This document shows, piece by piece, positions 18,210 to 28,172 of a DNA stretch of 42,908 nt. The notes beneath the pieces were generated by a model. The model was not told the origin of the DNA and did no database searches. It saw only the letters and a program-made list of their open reading frames with translations. Source of the DNA: Candidatus Hermodarchaeota archaeon (GTDB lineage Archaea; Asgardarchaeota; Hermodarchaeia; Hermodarchaeales; Hermodarchaeaceae); assembly GCA_016839365.1 (NCBI GenBank), contig JAEOUH010000004.1:1-42908 (forward strand), in the 5' to 3' direction. Position 1 is the first letter of the stretch; every line of letters begins with the position of its first letter. The position numbers and the translations under genes are program-made.

Positions 18210-18266
18210 GATGTTTCATAAATCCCTCCACCTTCAGGAAATCTAGGAAAGTTTAGCGTGACAACT

Positions 18267-19238
18267 ATGGACGAGATTGATAAGAAACTCATATTCGAAC
18301 TACTCGTTGATTATCGGGCTTCTTATCAGTCCATGGCGAAGAAACTCGATTTATCTGTGAACGGTGTGAAGAAACGGTTTGAACGGTTGAAAAGTGTGGG
18401 TATCATTCGTGGTGGGCTTTTGGTACCTGTGCCTAGGATGCTAGGGAGTGAGGAGTGGGTGGCGATTTTACGCATGGAAGGATCGAGTACCTCAGAAGAA
18501 CAGCTGGGTAGAGTGGGCGCACACCGTTTGGTTCGAGCAGGGAGTATTTTAACCGATGGAAGCATGCTATGCTTTGGTAGTGTTGGAGGAGCAAAAGACC
18601 TTCAGGAGATTGGGAGTTATTTGCGCCAAGTCCCTGGAGTAGTAACTGTAGAATTTCACACCGTTTTGAATGATCCAGGAAAGAAGTGTGAGTTGACTAT
18701 GGCTGATTTGAAAGTCCTCCGCTGTTTGCGCGAAGAGCCGCGAATACCAATCAGCGAGATTGCCCAACGAACTGGGTTGACACCACGTCGCATCCGGAAA
18801 ATACTTGTAAATTTATTTGGGGAAAACGGTTCGGAGATAACTTTTTACTTGAATTGGGAACCGCGAGGCGTGGCGCACCCCAATGAGGTGTGTTTTCGTC
18901 TGATGGTTTCGTGGAATTTAAACGCCGGCGGATATACGGCATTCATTATTAGGGTTAAGCATGCAGAAGGCAGTGAAGCCCGAAGTCAGATTGTCAATTG
19001 GTTGAAACGCTCATATCCGTTTGAGTTCTGGTATGCTTATGCGTCGGCCTTCGAACCTGTGATTTTTTGCATATTCATGGTTGAGCATTTACGTGAATCA
19101 ATTGACATAGCGAGTGCTGTGACACAATTACCGGAAGCCACTGATGTGTATCCGATTTTCGGATATCCCACGAAAGTCTTTCGAAGCCAAATAGATGACT
19201 ATTTTGAAACACTCTTCAAACAGCTAGATGCGAAGTGA
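18267..19238 (+). CDS. Lrp/AsnC-type regulator with two HTH domains
   Basis: The 323-aa protein starts with an AsnC-type winged helix (MDEIDKKLIFELLVDYRAS, SVNGVKKRFERLKSVG, IIRGG wing), followed by a linker domain. A second HTH follows at about residues 135-175 (ADLKVLRCLREEPRIPISEI, GLTPRRIRKIL). The C-terminal domain has the WNLNAGGYTAFIIRVKH and FWYAYASAFEPVIFC segments that it shares with its neighbour. It lacks a clear RAM effector domain of bacterial Lrp. ATG 18267 is chosen over GTG 18258 because the paralogue has MDEIDK at the same point. Probably a DNA-binding regulator, perhaps autoregulated through the upstream dyad. Confidence 0.85.
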   Translation: MDEIDKKLIFELLVDYRASYQSMAKKLDLSVNGVKKRFERLKSVGIIRGGLLVPVPRMLGSEEWVAILRMEGSSTSEEQLGRVGAHRLVRAGSILTDGSMLCFGSVGGAKDLQEIGSYLRQVPGVVTVEFHTVLNDPGKKCELTMADLKVLRCLREEPRIPISEIAQRTGLTPRRIRKILVNLFGENGSEITFYLNWEPRGVAHPNEVCFRLMVSWNLNAGGYTAFIIRVKHAEGSEARSQIVNWLKRSYPFEFWYAYASAFEPVIFCIFMVEHLRESIDIASAVTQLPEATDVYPIFGYPTKVFRSQIDDYFETLFKQLDAK

Positions 19239-19390: not shown

Positions 19391-19447
19391 GGTGGTTTCA
19401 CAACGTCATCAAATCGATGTAAACCAGATTAGGTAGGTTTGGGAAGT

Positions 19448-20416
19448 ATGGACGAAATTGACAAGAACATCATCTTCGAGTTGTCTGTCAATTATCGTGT
19501 ATCATACCAGACTATTGCAAACAAATACAACCTCTCGGTGAATGCGGTAAAAAAACGTATACAGAAGCTCAAAAGTGACGGGATCATTCGTGGGGGGTGG
19601 TTAGTTCCGATGAATGCAATGTTGGGGATGGAATCTTGGGTTGCGCTGGTAAGAACGGAGGATCCGATTCCCTCGGATGCATTCTTGGATGGTATTGGAG
19701 CACACAAGTCGATCGATTCAGCAAGTATTCTCACGGATGGAAGCATTCTCTGCTTCGGACATTATGCTGGTGCCAAAGGTCTTGAGGAAATTGGTACATT
19801 CTTACGTCAAACTCCAGGTGTTATATCGGTCGATTTTCACACAATCTTATCTGAACCAGGTATGCGTTGTGAATTATCCTTATCAGATTTGAAGGTATTA
19901 CAGTGTTTACGACAGGACCCAAGAATGTCTATCAGTGATATATCTCAAAACACCAGGCTTACACCTCGTCGAATCCGAAAAATCATCCAAAATTTGATTG
20001 ACGAAAAAGGCTCCGAACCAGAACTCTATCTGAACTGGGACTCACGGGGTGGAAGCCGGCCTGATCAAGTGTCCTTCAAGCTTAGTGTGAATTGGGACTT
20101 GAATGCAGGAGGTCACACGGCCTTTATGATAATCATCCGTCACGAAGAAGGTAGAGAATTCCGATCTAAGATTGTTGATATTCTTAAAGAGACCTATCCA
20201 TTTTGGTTCTGGTATTCGTATGCATCGGCCTTTGAACCAGTCATTTTTTGCGTATTTGTGGTTGAGCACATGAGGGAAGCAGGCGATATAATTGAGACCT
20301 TGCGGCAAACACCCGAGGTTGTTTCCGCTAATGCAATTTACGGATATCCAAGCCGACGATATCATAGTGTCATTGATGAGTATTTTGAACAACTATTCAA
20401 ACGCCTAGAAGGCTAG
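19448..20416 (+). CDS. Lrp/AsnC-type regulator with two HTH domains (paralogue)
   Basis: The 322-aa product is a tandem paralogue of the protein at 18267 along its whole length. Shared landmarks are MDEIDK, SVNAVKKRIQKL, IIRGGWLVP, SILTDGSILCFG, LSDLKVLQCLRQDPRMSISD, TPRRIRKI and FWYSYASAFEPVIFC. ATG 19448 is preceded by GGGAAG; TTG 19439 is the alternative. The recognition helices differ slightly (GVKKRFERL versus AVKKRIQKL), so the two may read related but distinct sites or form mixed oligomers. The 140 nt downstream hold no gene. Confidence 0.85.
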   Translation: MDEIDKNIIFELSVNYRVSYQTIANKYNLSVNAVKKRIQKLKSDGIIRGGWLVPMNAMLGMESWVALVRTEDPIPSDAFLDGIGAHKSIDSASILTDGSILCFGHYAGAKGLEEIGTFLRQTPGVISVDFHTILSEPGMRCELSLSDLKVLQCLRQDPRMSISDISQNTRLTPRRIRKIIQNLIDEKGSEPELYLNWDSRGGSRPDQVSFKLSVNWDLNAGGHTAFMIIIRHEEGREFRSKIVDILKETYPFWFWYSYASAFEPVIFCVFVVEHMREAGDIIETLRQTPEVVSANAIYGYPSRRYHSVIDEYFEQLFKRLEG

Positions 20417-20496: not shown

Positions 20497-20519
20497 CTTG
20501 ACTATTATAAAAAAATCAA

Positions 20520-20641
20520 CCGGGTCTTCAAGGTTCCTTCCCCTCCATTTCGGCACTTCCCGGTCCAAAGAAAATGGGTGGCAATGGACCTTTTTAGGAC
20601 AACGGATTCGGAGTTTACGTTCGATTTCCTTGAAGACCCGG
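20520..20641 (+). ncRNA. Candidate structured RNA, 122 nt, 14-bp closing stem
   Basis: CCGGGTCTTCAAGG (20520-20533) and its exact reverse complement (20628-20641) enclose 94 nt. Inside, CCATTT/AAATGG (20545-20550 with 20572-20577) capped by CGG/CCG forms one arm. GGTCCA/TGGACC (20562-20567 with 20585-20590) could form a pseudoknot with it, and AACG/CGTT a weak third arm. A TATA-like box sits at the right distance for transcription to begin at 20520. It matches no RNA family I know (no 5S loop C, RNase P or SRP core). The strand is inferred from the TATA box only. Confidence 0.45.
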
Positions 20642-20704
20642 CTTTGGTCAGTGTCCAAGGTCCGTGTCCCTGGTGTCAGTGTCGCTCCCTAACAGTAAGT
20701 GTGA

Positions 20705-20848
20705 TTAGCGTCGTGATGTGACGATTGCAAAGTTGATTCGATCGCGGGGAGTGCCTCGTGGGTTCTTTGCTCCTGTCACAGCGCGTTCTGCAACAGGCAT
20801 TTCGACAATTTTCTTCTTTGTGTGTCCGGTTTCTTTCTTTTCGACCAT
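20705..20848 (-). CDS. Small basic protein, 47 aa (twin A), unknown
   Basis: ATG 20848 follows GGAGG with a 10-nt spacer and opens a 47-aa frame ending TSRR. It is Lys/Arg-rich with a KKKIVEMPVAERAVTGAKNP core. It aligns with the protein at 21203-21340 through M-x2-A/C-ER-x-V-x-G-x-K/R-NP-x5-R-x2-F/Y-A-I/V and the S-K/R-R end. Two independent genes sharing this pattern with good ribosome sites argue that both are real. The family is unknown to me. The charge suggests nucleic-acid binding, which is inference. Its 5' leader holds a TCCTGC/GCAGGA hairpin overlapping the Shine-Dalgarno. Confidence 0.7.
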   Translation of the reverse strand: MVEKKETGHTKKKIVEMPVAERAVTGAKNPRGTPRDRINFAIVTSRR

Positions 20849-20900: not shown

Positions 20901-20991
20901 CCTATTATTCGATGGGAGCTCGTCAGTGCAAAAATTCGATGAAAAGAGAAGAAGCGAGCCAACTTTTGCACTCCTTGGTGCAAAAATTCGA
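20901..20991 (-). promoter_or_regulatory. Promoter region of twin A with three GTGCAAAA boxes
   Basis: A TATA-like GAATAATAGG (- strand of 20901-20910) lies about 55 nt before the ATG. Just upstream are GTGCAAAAATTCGA at 20926-20939, TTTTGCAC at 20964-20971 and a second GTGCAAAAATTCGA at 20978-20991. The last two form a perfect 8-bp inverted repeat with a 6-nt centre. Confidence 0.5.
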
Positions 20992-21021
20992 AAAAAAAGG
21001 ATTTTAGGAAATAAGGGGGGA

Positions 21022-21144
21022 ATTGGGCCCGCACAAGCTCCAAACGGAAGGAACTAAGAAGTGTGGACATCCGCTGCCGGAACGCTGCTACGCCGATCCC
21101 CCGTCAACGGATGAAGAGGTGATCGGAGGTTCTGCAGGCCCAAT
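21022..21144 (+). ncRNA. Candidate structured RNA, 123 nt, long interrupted closing stem
   Basis: Bases 21022-21041 pair with 21125-21144 register for register: ATTGGGCC/GGCCCAAT (8 bp), C-A mismatch, GCA/TGC, C-C mismatch, AA/TT, G-G mismatch, CTCC/GGAG. That is 17 pairs with three 1x1 mismatches. Inside, GATC-CC-CCG-TCAA-CGG-(10 nt)-GATC (21095-21124) forms a second hairpin, competing for two bases with the end of the main stem. ATTTTAGG at 21001-21008 is a possible TATA box at about -20. Size resembles 5S rRNA but the conserved CCGAAC-GGAAG loop is missing. The family is unknown and the orientation is inferred. Confidence 0.45.
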
Positions 21145-21202
21145 GTCTTCGCTGCGAGCTGAATCTGGTGATCGTGTGTTCACCATGAGAATTCCTCACA
21201 GC

Positions 21203-21340
21203 TTAGCGTTTGCTTAACGCCAGCATGACTGCGTACCGAGTACGAGGTTTCGCAGTCGGGTGGGGGTTGCGGCAGCCAGCGACAAGGCGCTCACAAGCTG
21301 ACATGTTTTCGAGTTTCTTGTGTTTGTAGGATTTGGCCAT
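21203..21340 (-). CDS. Small basic protein, 45 aa (twin B), unknown
   Basis: ATG 21340 is preceded by GGAGGG with a 7-nt spacer and opens a 45-aa frame ending LSKR. Basic and Lys/Arg-rich, with HKKLENMSACERLVAGCRNP followed by a TRYAVML tail. It is a paralogue of twin A (20705-20848), adding two Cys. The gene lies directly downstream (on the - strand) of a GC-rich leader with CCCCGGGG and GGGG/CCCC pairings at 21374-21396. I do not recognise the family. Confidence 0.7.
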   Translation of the reverse strand: MAKSYKHKKLENMSACERLVAGCRNPHPTAKPRTRYAVMLALSKR

Positions 21341-21412: not shown

Positions 21413-21541
21413 GGATTTGATATGAATCGATGGGAGTAAAATAGTGCAAATGTCCGCGGTTCAAGCTCAGAAATCAAGAAATTTTGAACCGTTGTGTGCA
21501 AAATAATGTACCAAAATCTGGCATTTCTCCGTTTTTTGCAC
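21413..21541 (-). promoter_or_regulatory. Promoter region of twin B with three GTGCAAA boxes
   Basis: ATTCATATCAAAT (- strand of 21416-21428) is a TATA-like site. Upstream of it are GTGCAAA at 21444-21450, GTGCAAAA at 21496-21503 and TTTTGCAC at 21534-21541, the same octamer found before twin A. A separate inverted repeat CGGTTCAA/TTGAACCG spans 21457-21491. Apart from these the 303 nt between twin B and the next gene hold no ORF that I can support. Confidence 0.5.
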
Positions 21542-21643: not shown

Positions 21644-22165
21644 ATGCCAAAACAAGATGTCAAGCCGATCGAGGGTCTACAAGCATTACCCCCATTTCCT
21701 GTAGTGTTTGTCTCCGTGCAAGAGAACGTAATGACAGCAGCAGCGTTTCATTTCTTTTCATTCAATTCCCTTTGCGTGATGGTATGAATCCGACCACAAA
21801 CACACACCTTTAGCTTACTACAGCAGGCTAAAGAATTCGGAATAAATATTCCAACGATAACCCAGCTAGAAGAGGTACGTGTCTGTGGGTCCGTGTCAGC
21901 TCGGGATGAAGGCAAATTTGAGAAAACCGGATTAACCAAGATGAAAGGGAAAGTCATCGATACCGTCCTCGTGGCGGAGTGCCCTGTGAACTTGGAGTGT
22001 CGCGTCGTACACGAAGTAGAGTTTGAAGGGAGCCATCGATGGTTTGTCGGTGAGGTCGTTGCAGCTCATGTAGCCGAGGATTACCAGCGGGATCAGGCCC
22101 TGATGTATTGGATGCGAGAGTATCGCCGCGTTGGCCAAGTTTTACTCACCATCAAAGGGCAGTAA
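21644..22165 (+). pseudogene. Flavin-reductase-like (FMN-binding split barrel) gene with in-frame TGA
   Basis: One frame from ATG 21644 to TAA 22165 encodes a full-length (174-codon) flavin reductase-like protein interrupted by a single TGA at 21785-21787. Before it: PPFPVVFVSVQENVMTAAAF and FSFNSLCVMV; after it: IRPQTHTFSLLQQAKEFGINIPT, VRVCGSVSARDEGKFEKTGLT and AECPVNLECRVV. Family members read VGIRP at the interruption, so the TGA replaces a Gly codon (GGA to TGA, one base). The rest is undamaged, meaning a very recent nonsense mutation, a sequencing error or readthrough. These proteins reduce flavins or act as FMN-binding oxidoreductases. GGTGG lies just before the ATG. Confidence 0.75.
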
Positions 22166-25586: not shown

Positions 25587-28172
25587 CTATTCTTCTGATC
25601 GGGCTTGGTTGAGGATGGGATAGATCTGTTCTGCGTTGATTATCGCTTCTCCATCGACTTCATAGTCGGTGGGATGGACAAAGATGGCATGGGTTTGGTT
25701 GCCTCCGACGCCACCATGGTTGCCGATTAATTCTTCATAAGCGGCAACGGAACCGTCAGGATAAACTGGGCTTATAAGTGTGAGATCACCAGCACTTGGG
25801 AACTCGGCCAGTCGCAAGAGTTGTTTGATGCGGATTTCAGGTCGCTCATAAGGAATCAGAGGGTTTATTCCATCTATATTACCGGTTCGTAGTTCAACAG
25901 CCCCTTTTTCTGATAAGAGGATTGGACCACGATTTTGATCCAAGACAATAAGGAAGCCAACTCCTTCATGGGCGACGAGTTTCGAAATAAAGCCAGGAAA
26001 TTGTTTTTCAAAGTCTTGTAAGGTTAGGCGTTCTTTTTGTGTATTGAAATAGACTTGTGCCAGATTACCTGATGCACATACTATGACATCATTTTCACTG
26101 ACCTCTTCACGCATATCAACTCGTTCTTTCTCAGCTTTTTGTCGATAGAAATGGCGTAGTGCAGTTTCGCCCTTCTTACCCTCCACTTCCGCTTTTCCAG
26201 CGTTTAGGTCATCGACGAGTCCACCGACATATCCGACGTGGGCATCTAAGGCTTCAATTTCTCCAACAGATAATTGACCTTCTAGCAAATTTTCAATGAA
26301 GTCTTTAATGGAGATGTTATATCGTTGTTTAAAGGTCCACCCCACAGACTGACCATGGTCTGAGAGGACAAAGAGATGATAGGGGCGAGGAGCTAGATGC
26401 TCGATAGCATGGAGCACTCGCCGAATCTGTTTATCAAGACCCCTAAGAGCCTTCAAAGCATCGCTGGTCATAGGCCCCGAATGATGAGCTATCTCATCGT
26501 ACCCAAGATAAGTAACATATACTCCGGGTACACCCCGGATGATGTCCTGTATCACCATGGAAGTCGCAATGTCACGCATGAAGATGTTCGTCGCTGCCCG
26601 AACCCCAGGATAGAATTTGTGAAACCGATTCATTCGTGGCTTCCGTCGAGTAATAGTTTGTTTGATTATCTGCCCAATTTCTACAATAAGATCCCAGATT
26701 GTATAGATAATACTCCGGTTCATCGCCCAAGGATTGAGTAAATAATAGTAGAGATCTTTACTTCGTCGTTCGCTGGCTTCCGTGTCTTTTTCTTGAAGCG
26801 TTGACATTGTGAAAAAGGAATAGGTGGCATCACCGCTTACTAGGTTACTCACACTGGACCCTCCGTTGCGGAGAATCCCCTGCCCATCGGATGCGCGTTT
26901 ATCGATGAAATGTGCATCTGTCTGTTTGTTTGAGGTCAACATGCGGTCTTCGTTTTTAATGTACCAGCGAAACGCAGGAATATCGTAGTTGTTCCCGTGG
27001 AGAATGCCAGCTTGACAGGAGGAGGTCATTGAGGGGATTCCGCAGTCCCATCCAGTGAGCTCATGGCTGCCACGGTCCAATAACTTCTGAATAGTGGGCA
27101 TATTTTCACGTTTTAGTGCCGCTTGCAGAGCGGGATAGCTTAGCCCATCGATTTCCAAGGCAACGACGCCAGGAGTTTGAGGGATATCTTCGGTTGCTAT
27201 TTCTTTCTGGATTTGTTTAGCAACGTATTGATTAAAGAAGCTACTATCATCATCGAGCCCTACAAGATTAACAATAATCGCATTGAATGCAGCAAAAATA
27301 AGCCCACCAATGAGGGCAGCCGGGATATTAACGACTACAAACCCAGGCAAAAAGACAGAGAGAAGATAAAGTATGAGTCCATTAACAAGGAACATAACCA
27401 CAAAGGAGACGGCAAATCCGATCCACCAGCGGGCAATCCATGAGGCGACTTTGGTGAAGACTGGGCGAATTAGCACGTTGACAAGAGCAATCAAGGCTAC
27501 GACAATATAGATTACCCCTAAAGCTGTGAGAATGTCACCAGAAAACACGCCAGCAACGATAATTCCATTGTACAATATCGTTGTTAAAAGCAGAGCAAGT
27601 GCATTGAGATTCCAGACCAAGATGAAGCGCCCTAGTCGGATATTACCATAGGGTTGATCTTCTAGCTGCCAGATAATAAATGCACCAACAAAGAACACGT
27701 TAATTGCCAACACAATAAAGAACACACCTAATGCCACATCAAGAAAAATAAGAGGGCCGATGACGGTCACAGGATGAAAGAGGTTGAACACATAACTGAG
27801 AACTCCACCAGTTATTGCTAGAAGAGACACAGCGATACCAAGAGGAACAGCCCATTTCTTCCGATACGCTGTCCCCAGGGCTACGATCATGCCAATAAGT
27901 GCAACAAAGGTAAGAGAAACGCCTATTGTAAGAAAAAGGCTGAGAATCAACTGAACGGTGAGACCAGCATTCGTAATTGCTGTCATAATTTGAGCATATT
28001 GGGTAGGATTAGAAACAGCAAGGAGGTTGAGATAATCTACGAAACTGGCGGGGAGTAAACTGATGATCCCACCAATTATCGTGAAAGTAAACATCAGTAC
28101 AAAGTCAATGCCAGCAATGACGCGAACTACTCGAGGGGCTAGGTGCTTTCTTACGGTCTGAGTTTCTGCCAT
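25587..28172 (-). CDS. Membrane-anchored type I phosphodiesterase (alkaline phosphatase superfamily)
   Basis: Of 861 residues, the first 330 form about nine TM helices; the last two resemble the phage-holin-4/YvlD fold (FVVNIPAALIGGLIFAAFNAIIV). From 345 onward lies a phosphodiesterase/nucleotide-pyrophosphatase domain: metal Asp in GVVALEIDGLSYP, the nucleophile region SMTSSCQAGILHG, YLGYDEIAHHSGP, LFVLSDHGQS and a final NHGGVGGNQTHA metal site. Substrate (lipid head group, polyisoprenoid or nucleotide) is unknown. ATG has GGAG 8 nt upstream. The stem with holin-like helices suggests an outward-facing catalytic domain. Confidence 0.85.
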   Translation of the reverse strand: MAETQTVRKHLAPRVVRVIAGIDFVLMFTFTIIGGIISLLPASFVDYLNLLAVSNPTQYAQIMTAITNAGLTVQLILSLFLTIGVSLTFVALIGMIVALGTAYRKKWAVPLGIAVSLLAITGGVLSYVFNLFHPVTVIGPLIFLDVALGVFFIVLAINVFFVGAFIIWQLEDQPYGNIRLGRFILVWNLNALALLLTTILYNGIIVAGVFSGDILTALGVIYIVVALIALVNVLIRPVFTKVASWIARWWIGFAVSFVVMFLVNGLILYLLSVFLPGFVVVNIPAALIGGLIFAAFNAIIVNLVGLDDDSSFFNQYVAKQIQKEIATEDIPQTPGVVALEIDGLSYPALQAALKRENMPTIQKLLDRGSHELTGWDCGIPSMTSSCQAGILHGNNYDIPAFRWYIKNEDRMLTSNKQTDAHFIDKRASDGQGILRNGGSSVSNLVSGDATYSFFTMSTLQEKDTEASERRSKDLYYYLLNPWAMNRSIIYTIWDLIVEIGQIIKQTITRRKPRMNRFHKFYPGVRAATNIFMRDIATSMVIQDIIRGVPGVYVTYLGYDEIAHHSGPMTSDALKALRGLDKQIRRVLHAIEHLAPRPYHLFVLSDHGQSVGWTFKQRYNISIKDFIENLLEGQLSVGEIEALDAHVGYVGGLVDDLNAGKAEVEGKKGETALRHFYRQKAEKERVDMREEVSENDVIVCASGNLAQVYFNTQKERLTLQDFEKQFPGFISKLVAHEGVGFLIVLDQNRGPILLSEKGAVELRTGNIDGINPLIPYERPEIRIKQLLRLAEFPSAGDLTLISPVYPDGSVAAYEELIGNHGGVGGNQTHAIFVHPTDYEVDGEAIINAEQIYPILNQARSEE

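Follow-up and report, generated by a model that had tools for sequence, protein, structure and literature searches.

A conserved structured RNA family of Hermodarchaeia, probably the 3′ part of operator-controlled micro-protein transcripts

Bacterial dual-function small RNAs such as SgrS/SgrT and SR1/SR1P combine a regulatory RNA with an encoded small protein. The Hermodarchaeia locus described here resembles them in that a short predicted transcript joins a conserved small open reading frame (ORF) to a conserved structured RNA domain. It differs from them in having no sequence relation to them and no known target or phenotype, in that the RNA also occurs without its 45-aa ORF, and in being found in Hermodarchaeia only. 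Small RNAs derived from mRNA 3′ untranslated regions (3′UTRs), for which the glutamine synthetase mRNA provides an example (PMC9731577), offer a second likeness, i.e., a structured RNA at the mRNA 3′ end beside the terminator; those compared are bacterial, and release from the mRNA is only putative for the Hermodarchaeia element. Archaeal U-tract termination with aCPSF1 has been reported (PMC8716108), and the T-tract directly after the element recalls it, but such terminators are not known to require a conserved 120-nt structure. The small proteome of Methanosarcina mazei (PMC11456600) serves as the archaeal reference, and Candidatus Hermodarchaeota is an Asgard lineage described in PMC8163825. 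Open-access literature searches returned no account of structured RNAs specific to any one Asgard lineage.

The window, i.e., the whole 42,908-nt stretch of Candidatus Hermodarchaeota DNA that was analysed, carries two cassettes on its minus strand. Reading from position 21700, these comprise an operator, a 45-aa gene, a spacer of ~60 nt in which a hairpin can form, element 2, a T8 tract, a second operator, a 47-aa gene, element 1, and a T7 tract. The relevant features are as follows.

18258..19238, plus strand: Lrp/AsnC-type regulator with two HTH domains (Pfam)
19439..20416, plus strand: another two-HTH regulator of the Lrp/AsnC type, its gene convergent with the cassettes (Pfam)
20509..20515, minus strand: T7 tract 3′ of element 1 (sequence)
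20520..20641, minus strand: element 1, the first element and a paralogue of element 2 (covariance model match; alignment A3)
20705..20848, minus strand: gene 1, encoding a 47-aa basic protein, paralogue of gene 2 (dN 0.17-0.18 versus dS 1.0-1.2 to orthologues)
20964..20985, no strand assigned: perfect palindromic putative operator TTTTGCAC-N6-GTGCAAAA upstream of gene 1 (sequence search)
20991..20998, minus strand: T8 tract 3′ of element 2, probable transcript 3′ end (sequence; sense-side T-runs)
21022..21033, minus strand: 3′ arm of closing stem P1 of element 2 (stem of 12 bp; comparison of three orthologues shows three pairs with both bases changed)
21022..21144, minus strand: element 2, structured RNA, predicted 3′ domain of the transcription unit of the 45-aa gene (fold z −3.81; covariance model; homology to 12 other elements)
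21071..21110, minus strand: conserved inner hairpin of element 2 (kept in orthologues)
21133..21144, minus strand: 5′ arm of closing stem P1 of element 2 (same 12-bp stem, with the same three changed pairs)
21203..21340, minus strand: gene 2, encoding a 45-aa basic protein, ~60 nt upstream of element 2 (26-locus family with invariant E, R, N, P)
21482..21503, no strand assigned: the same putative operator upstream of gene 2, here with one mismatch (sequence search)

The arms ATTGGGCCCGCACAAGCTCC (21022-21041) and GGAGGTTCTGCAGGCCCAAT (21125-21144) pair in register at 17 of 20 positions, and the three 1x1 mismatches counted by an earlier note on this DNA are indeed there, at arm positions 9, 13, and 16; the one at position 9 is a G-U pair when read on the minus strand. 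The note was also right that the repeat lies 380 nt from the first element and between the two small-protein genes. Nowhere else in the window do two 20-base arms match at 17 or more positions over a span of 60-200 nt, and 12 shuffled windows held three such pairs altogether. At ~0.25 per shuffled window, the repeat by itself is only mildly surprising, and comparison decides. The minus strand of 21022-21144 folds to −53.1 kcal/mol (z −3.81, 0 of 200 shuffles as good), versus −43.3 kcal/mol for the plus strand (z −1.71, 11 of 200 as good), so that the folding check came out in favour of a structured RNA on the minus strand and against one on the plus strand. Among 150 random 123-mers of the window (mean z −0.1), none had z ≤ −3.8. 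The element is also conserved in relatives when read on the minus strand, from which the RNA is apparently transcribed.

Homologous elements are located 53-188 nt past the stop codon in 13 of 26 micro-protein loci and in 7 of the 8 Hermodarchaeia genomes, which are metagenome assemblies of 74-86% completeness. Their usual closing stem is CGGGUCUUC/GAAGACCCG. Over the 13 sequences, pairing holds in 96.5% of closing-stem cells, both sides are changed in 5 of 11 pairs (20 cells), and shifting the partner by 1 to 3 columns lowers pairing to 24-53%. Shuffling reached the cell count of 20 in 0 of 500 trials and the pair count in 11 of 500, figures that are not probabilities because this control leaves relatedness in; the covariation counts themselves are inflated by related sequences, with few species and incomplete assemblies behind them. 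MAFFT alignment A4, in which the 3′ arm of copies lacking the 45-aa gene is misplaced, was excluded from the pair counts. The closing-stem changes preserve G-U pairs of the sense RNA. Element 2 shares the covarying closing stem of ~11 bp that marks the family, and, within it, helices CYGUUG/CARCRG (21105-21110 with 21071-21076) and GAUCG/CGWUY (21094-21098 with 21080-21084) are largely retained in its orthologues, unlike the CCGATC/GATCGG hairpin. The inner GATC/CCG hairpin noted earlier can form in element 2 itself, but each of the two orthologues disrupts it. Comparison shows that the minus strand of 21022-21144 specifies a structured RNA, closed by a covarying stem of 12 bp and containing an inner hairpin that is conserved. 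Over 16 copies, the sense reading has a mean z of −4.6 and the antisense reading one of −3.8; the antisense strand likewise folds well in several of them. Folding of the whole interval from stop codon to T-tract, done without a control, was not significant for long-spacer loci and has been superseded by the element folds set against random 123-mers.

Strand is also marked by what follows the elements. The longest T-runs average 5.4 on the sense side versus 2.5 on the other side. Like the family in general, element 2 has a T-tract (T8) shortly after its 3′ arm, whereas the runs are just 3-4 in three copies without the 45-aa gene. Because U-tract termination has been reported in archaea (PMC8716108), these tracts are plausible 3′ ends.

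Covariance model R1 recovers all 13 training sequences, among them element 1 (20513-20647, minus strand, 88.8 bits) and element 2 (21016-21149, minus strand, 58.7 bits), and adds the three copies without the 45-aa gene; its E-values are rough. The two elements had been taken for unrelated sequences, which does not hold given that both score against this one model, albeit as training sequences, and their similar lengths mainly reflect common descent. The proposal of a size-constrained RNA class survives as to the class, which is backed by covariation, fold energies over 16 copies, and exclusive genomic association, while size is constrained only loosely, the distance from stem to stem being 119-138 nt in one genus, 99-104 nt in the other, and ~150 nt where the 45-aa gene is missing. 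Elements 1 and 2 are thus almost certainly members of one structured RNA family, to judge from these comparisons, and one found so far in Hermodarchaeia only. The family core, AUCCGUUGUCC ... AGUAGGUCC ... ACCUCUUGG, is strong in the c33/c66/c27/c177 and c7/c446/c85 copies; element 2, among the more diverged ones, retains AUCCGUUG and not the remainder. The three added copies (L141, L142, and L143) are mutually orthologous, have a different closing stem (ACGGCUCCCC/GGGGAGCCGU), and retain the family core AUCCGUUGUCCACC...AGUAGGYCC and ACCUCUUGG within a near-identical stretch, AUCCGUUGUCCACCAGCAGUAGGYCCCCAAGC plus ACCUCUUGGUCC. Two of them sit after an Lrp-type gene plus a putative 18-aa ORF; the third comes after the end of a larger ORF that by eye resembles a beta-lactamase-type protein. 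Retention of the core in copies lacking the 45-aa gene suggests that the RNA has a role apart from the 45-aa protein.

A gapped stem pattern matched only micro-protein loci in the 8 Hermodarchaeia genomes (each match on both strands, because the pattern is palindromic), and its reversed control gave one match in total. By comparison, members of the family most often appear to form the 3′ portion of transcription units for micro-proteins. The covariance model found no convincing copy in the other 219 Asgard genomes; weak matches in two of these (G188 and G152), stems of 61-67 nt that miss most of the model, were taken as chance. Rfam 15 gave no match in the element at the gathering score or at E up to 5, and a sub-threshold C/D-box match 3′ of another copy was taken as chance. 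Neither the micro-protein nor the RNA core was matched in viral contigs, which makes a viral origin unlikely.

The associated micro-proteins share the core xERAxTGCRNPxPTPxxRxA, with E, R, N, and P invariant, and their C-termini follow the pattern [TS]R[RKH]. Their 26 loci, 1 to 4 per genome, cover 8 of the 8 Hermodarchaeia genomes examined. The remainder of 227 Asgard genomes yielded no convincing member, the weak matches outside the class (E ≥ 0.002, several with internal stops) being rejected. Over 11 pairs of ORFs, dN was 0.016-0.18 and dS 0.16-1.16, with dN/dS of about 0.04-0.26; judged by these ratios, the ORFs are under purifying selection at the protein level, as the small ORF of a dual-function RNA should be. 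Neither the 45-aa nor the 47-aa protein has anything credible in Pfam, NCBIfam, PADLOC, or the PDB sequences, PDB matches being at chance level, and AlphaFold gives no informative model for the 45-aa protein (pLDDT 63, pTM 0.31). The remaining 13 of the 26 loci carry other 3′ hairpins in place of the element, so the micro-protein does not need it. At loci c85, c90, c13, and c6 (L060, L063, L065, and L067), a different compact 3′ element, CATTCACCCGTTGTGGACGCACAGCGGGTGAATG, separates the micro-protein gene from an ORF of ~340 aa. Another one, around GGGCTGAACCCGAGAGGGTGTCGGGACAGCCC, follows micro-protein genes of the other genus at loci c2, c39, c59, c110, and c17 (L069, L071, L075, L076, and L077), and c2, c59, and c17 also carry GTAGGTCC, a motif of the Hermodarchaeia RNA class. 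More tiny ORFs lie by L059, L062, L064, L066, L071, and L076; their C-termini are similar (hydrophobic-[TS]R[RK]), as in MENKKQNLQMNGSNKDTFLYTLLFTRR and MNTKQRKPTQTPHQVRNAFANGLILTRK.

Allowing at most one mismatch, the palindrome TTTTGCAC-N6-GTGCAAAA has six sites in the 8 genomes, versus none for its reversed control. Five are upstream of micro-protein genes, namely both window genes, the gene-1 orthologues in two genomes, and one relative in the other genus; the sixth (L167:1242-1263, i.e., G000:C44:16641-16662) is just 3′ of another Lrp-type gene with two HTH domains. Similar Lrp-type genes, judged by eye, stand near several other cassettes. From position, one may guess that the neighbouring two-HTH Lrp/AsnC-type proteins read the operator. 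Another palindrome, GTCAC-N6-GTGAC, occurs upstream of a different subset of micro-protein genes at loci c22, c107, and c60 (L068, L070, and L074), hinting at a separate regulator.

Our main reading, to which we give a probability of roughly 0.6, is that of a conserved Hermodarchaeia RNA family borne on an operator-controlled transcript of the dual-function or 3′UTR-derived kind. Both cassettes would be under the control of a regulator that binds the palindrome, perhaps the two-HTH Lrp-type protein encoded next to them. Each cassette transcript would end at its T-tract and be translated into the micro-protein, and the folded 3′ domain would persist as a stable RNA, as part of a dual-function mRNA or as a 3′UTR-derived small RNA, whose conserved unpaired core may act in trans or bind protein. 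Conservation of this core even where the 45-aa gene is missing favours such an RNA; the dual-function mechanism taken on its own falls slightly short of even odds on the sequence comparisons. A more specific idea, which we regard as unlikely though worth stating, is that the paralogous micro-proteins (ERAxTGCRNP core) each bind the RNA of their own transcript, i.e., a class-wide Asgard ribonucleoprotein with co-diverging RNA and protein and a dedicated palindrome-binding regulator. No target was found for the RNA, and its rRNA complementarity was at chance level. Specifically, a role as rRNA guide was rejected because the longest complementarity, 10-13 nt, was no better than with shuffles (rRNA found in 3 of 8 genomes).

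The most serious rival is a purely cis-acting 3′UTR structure without any trans role, the stem of which protects the 3′ end of the micro-protein mRNA or aids 3′-end formation at the T-tract. We consider it unlikely, but clearly ahead of the other alternatives. It accounts well for the invariable position of the element directly before the T-tract, and it stays in contention because the other 13 micro-protein loci have unrelated hairpins at that place, as if any stem would serve. However, conservation in the unpaired core and closing stem goes beyond pairing to the sequence itself across paralogues, and copies without the 45-aa gene exist.

An attenuator, with the small ORF as leader peptide and the structure governing read-through to a downstream gene, is very improbable. 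The order of small ORF, structure, and T-tract would suit it, as would the same-direction gene that comes next at some loci, but downstream genes vary among loci and the ORFs show protein-level selection along their length. Moreover, there is nothing to attenuate at element 1 because a convergent gene comes after it in the window. Hardly any credence is left for the earlier note's proposal of an RNA on the plus strand with a promoter of its own. The plus strand can fold too, but far less well relative to its shuffles; its longest T-run on that side of element 2 is 2, with no T-tract; and the TATA-like box seen near −20 falls in an unconserved spacer that is in fact downstream of the minus-strand RNA. 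We find a DNA-level feature, for instance an attC-like site of an integron or a mobile-element end, equally hard to credit. A small ORF with an imperfect inverted repeat of ~120 nt behind it does recall a gene cassette, and integrons have been reported in archaea (PMC9668308), but the GTTRRRY/RYYYAAC core boxes are absent near the ends of 16 of 16 copies on both strands, the loci are stably syntenic between species rather than arrayed, and covariation is of the RNA type, keeping the G-U pairs of the sense RNA. Finally, a functionless chance repeat, for all that shuffled windows yield ~0.25 such repeats each, is contradicted by covariation in the orthologues and by conservation of position and family.

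The conserved Hermodarchaeia RNA thus comes with covariation, an assigned strand and a predicted 3′ end, together with a new protein family linked to it and a putative operator of its own, which makes its transcription, processing, and partners directly testable in metatranscriptomes or in a heterologous archaeon. Two further observations concern the same genomes. The rRNA genes look intron-rich: the SSU gene of G001 extends over ~3,594 nt for a model of 1,478 positions (L154, G001:C71:619-4212), and SSU/LSU matches are split in G001, G005, and G006 (L154-L160 and L148-L151). In the window, positions 25587-28172 of the minus strand encode an 861-aa protein that combines a holin-like domain with four TMS (PF04020, just below the cut-off) and a type I phosphodiesterase domain.
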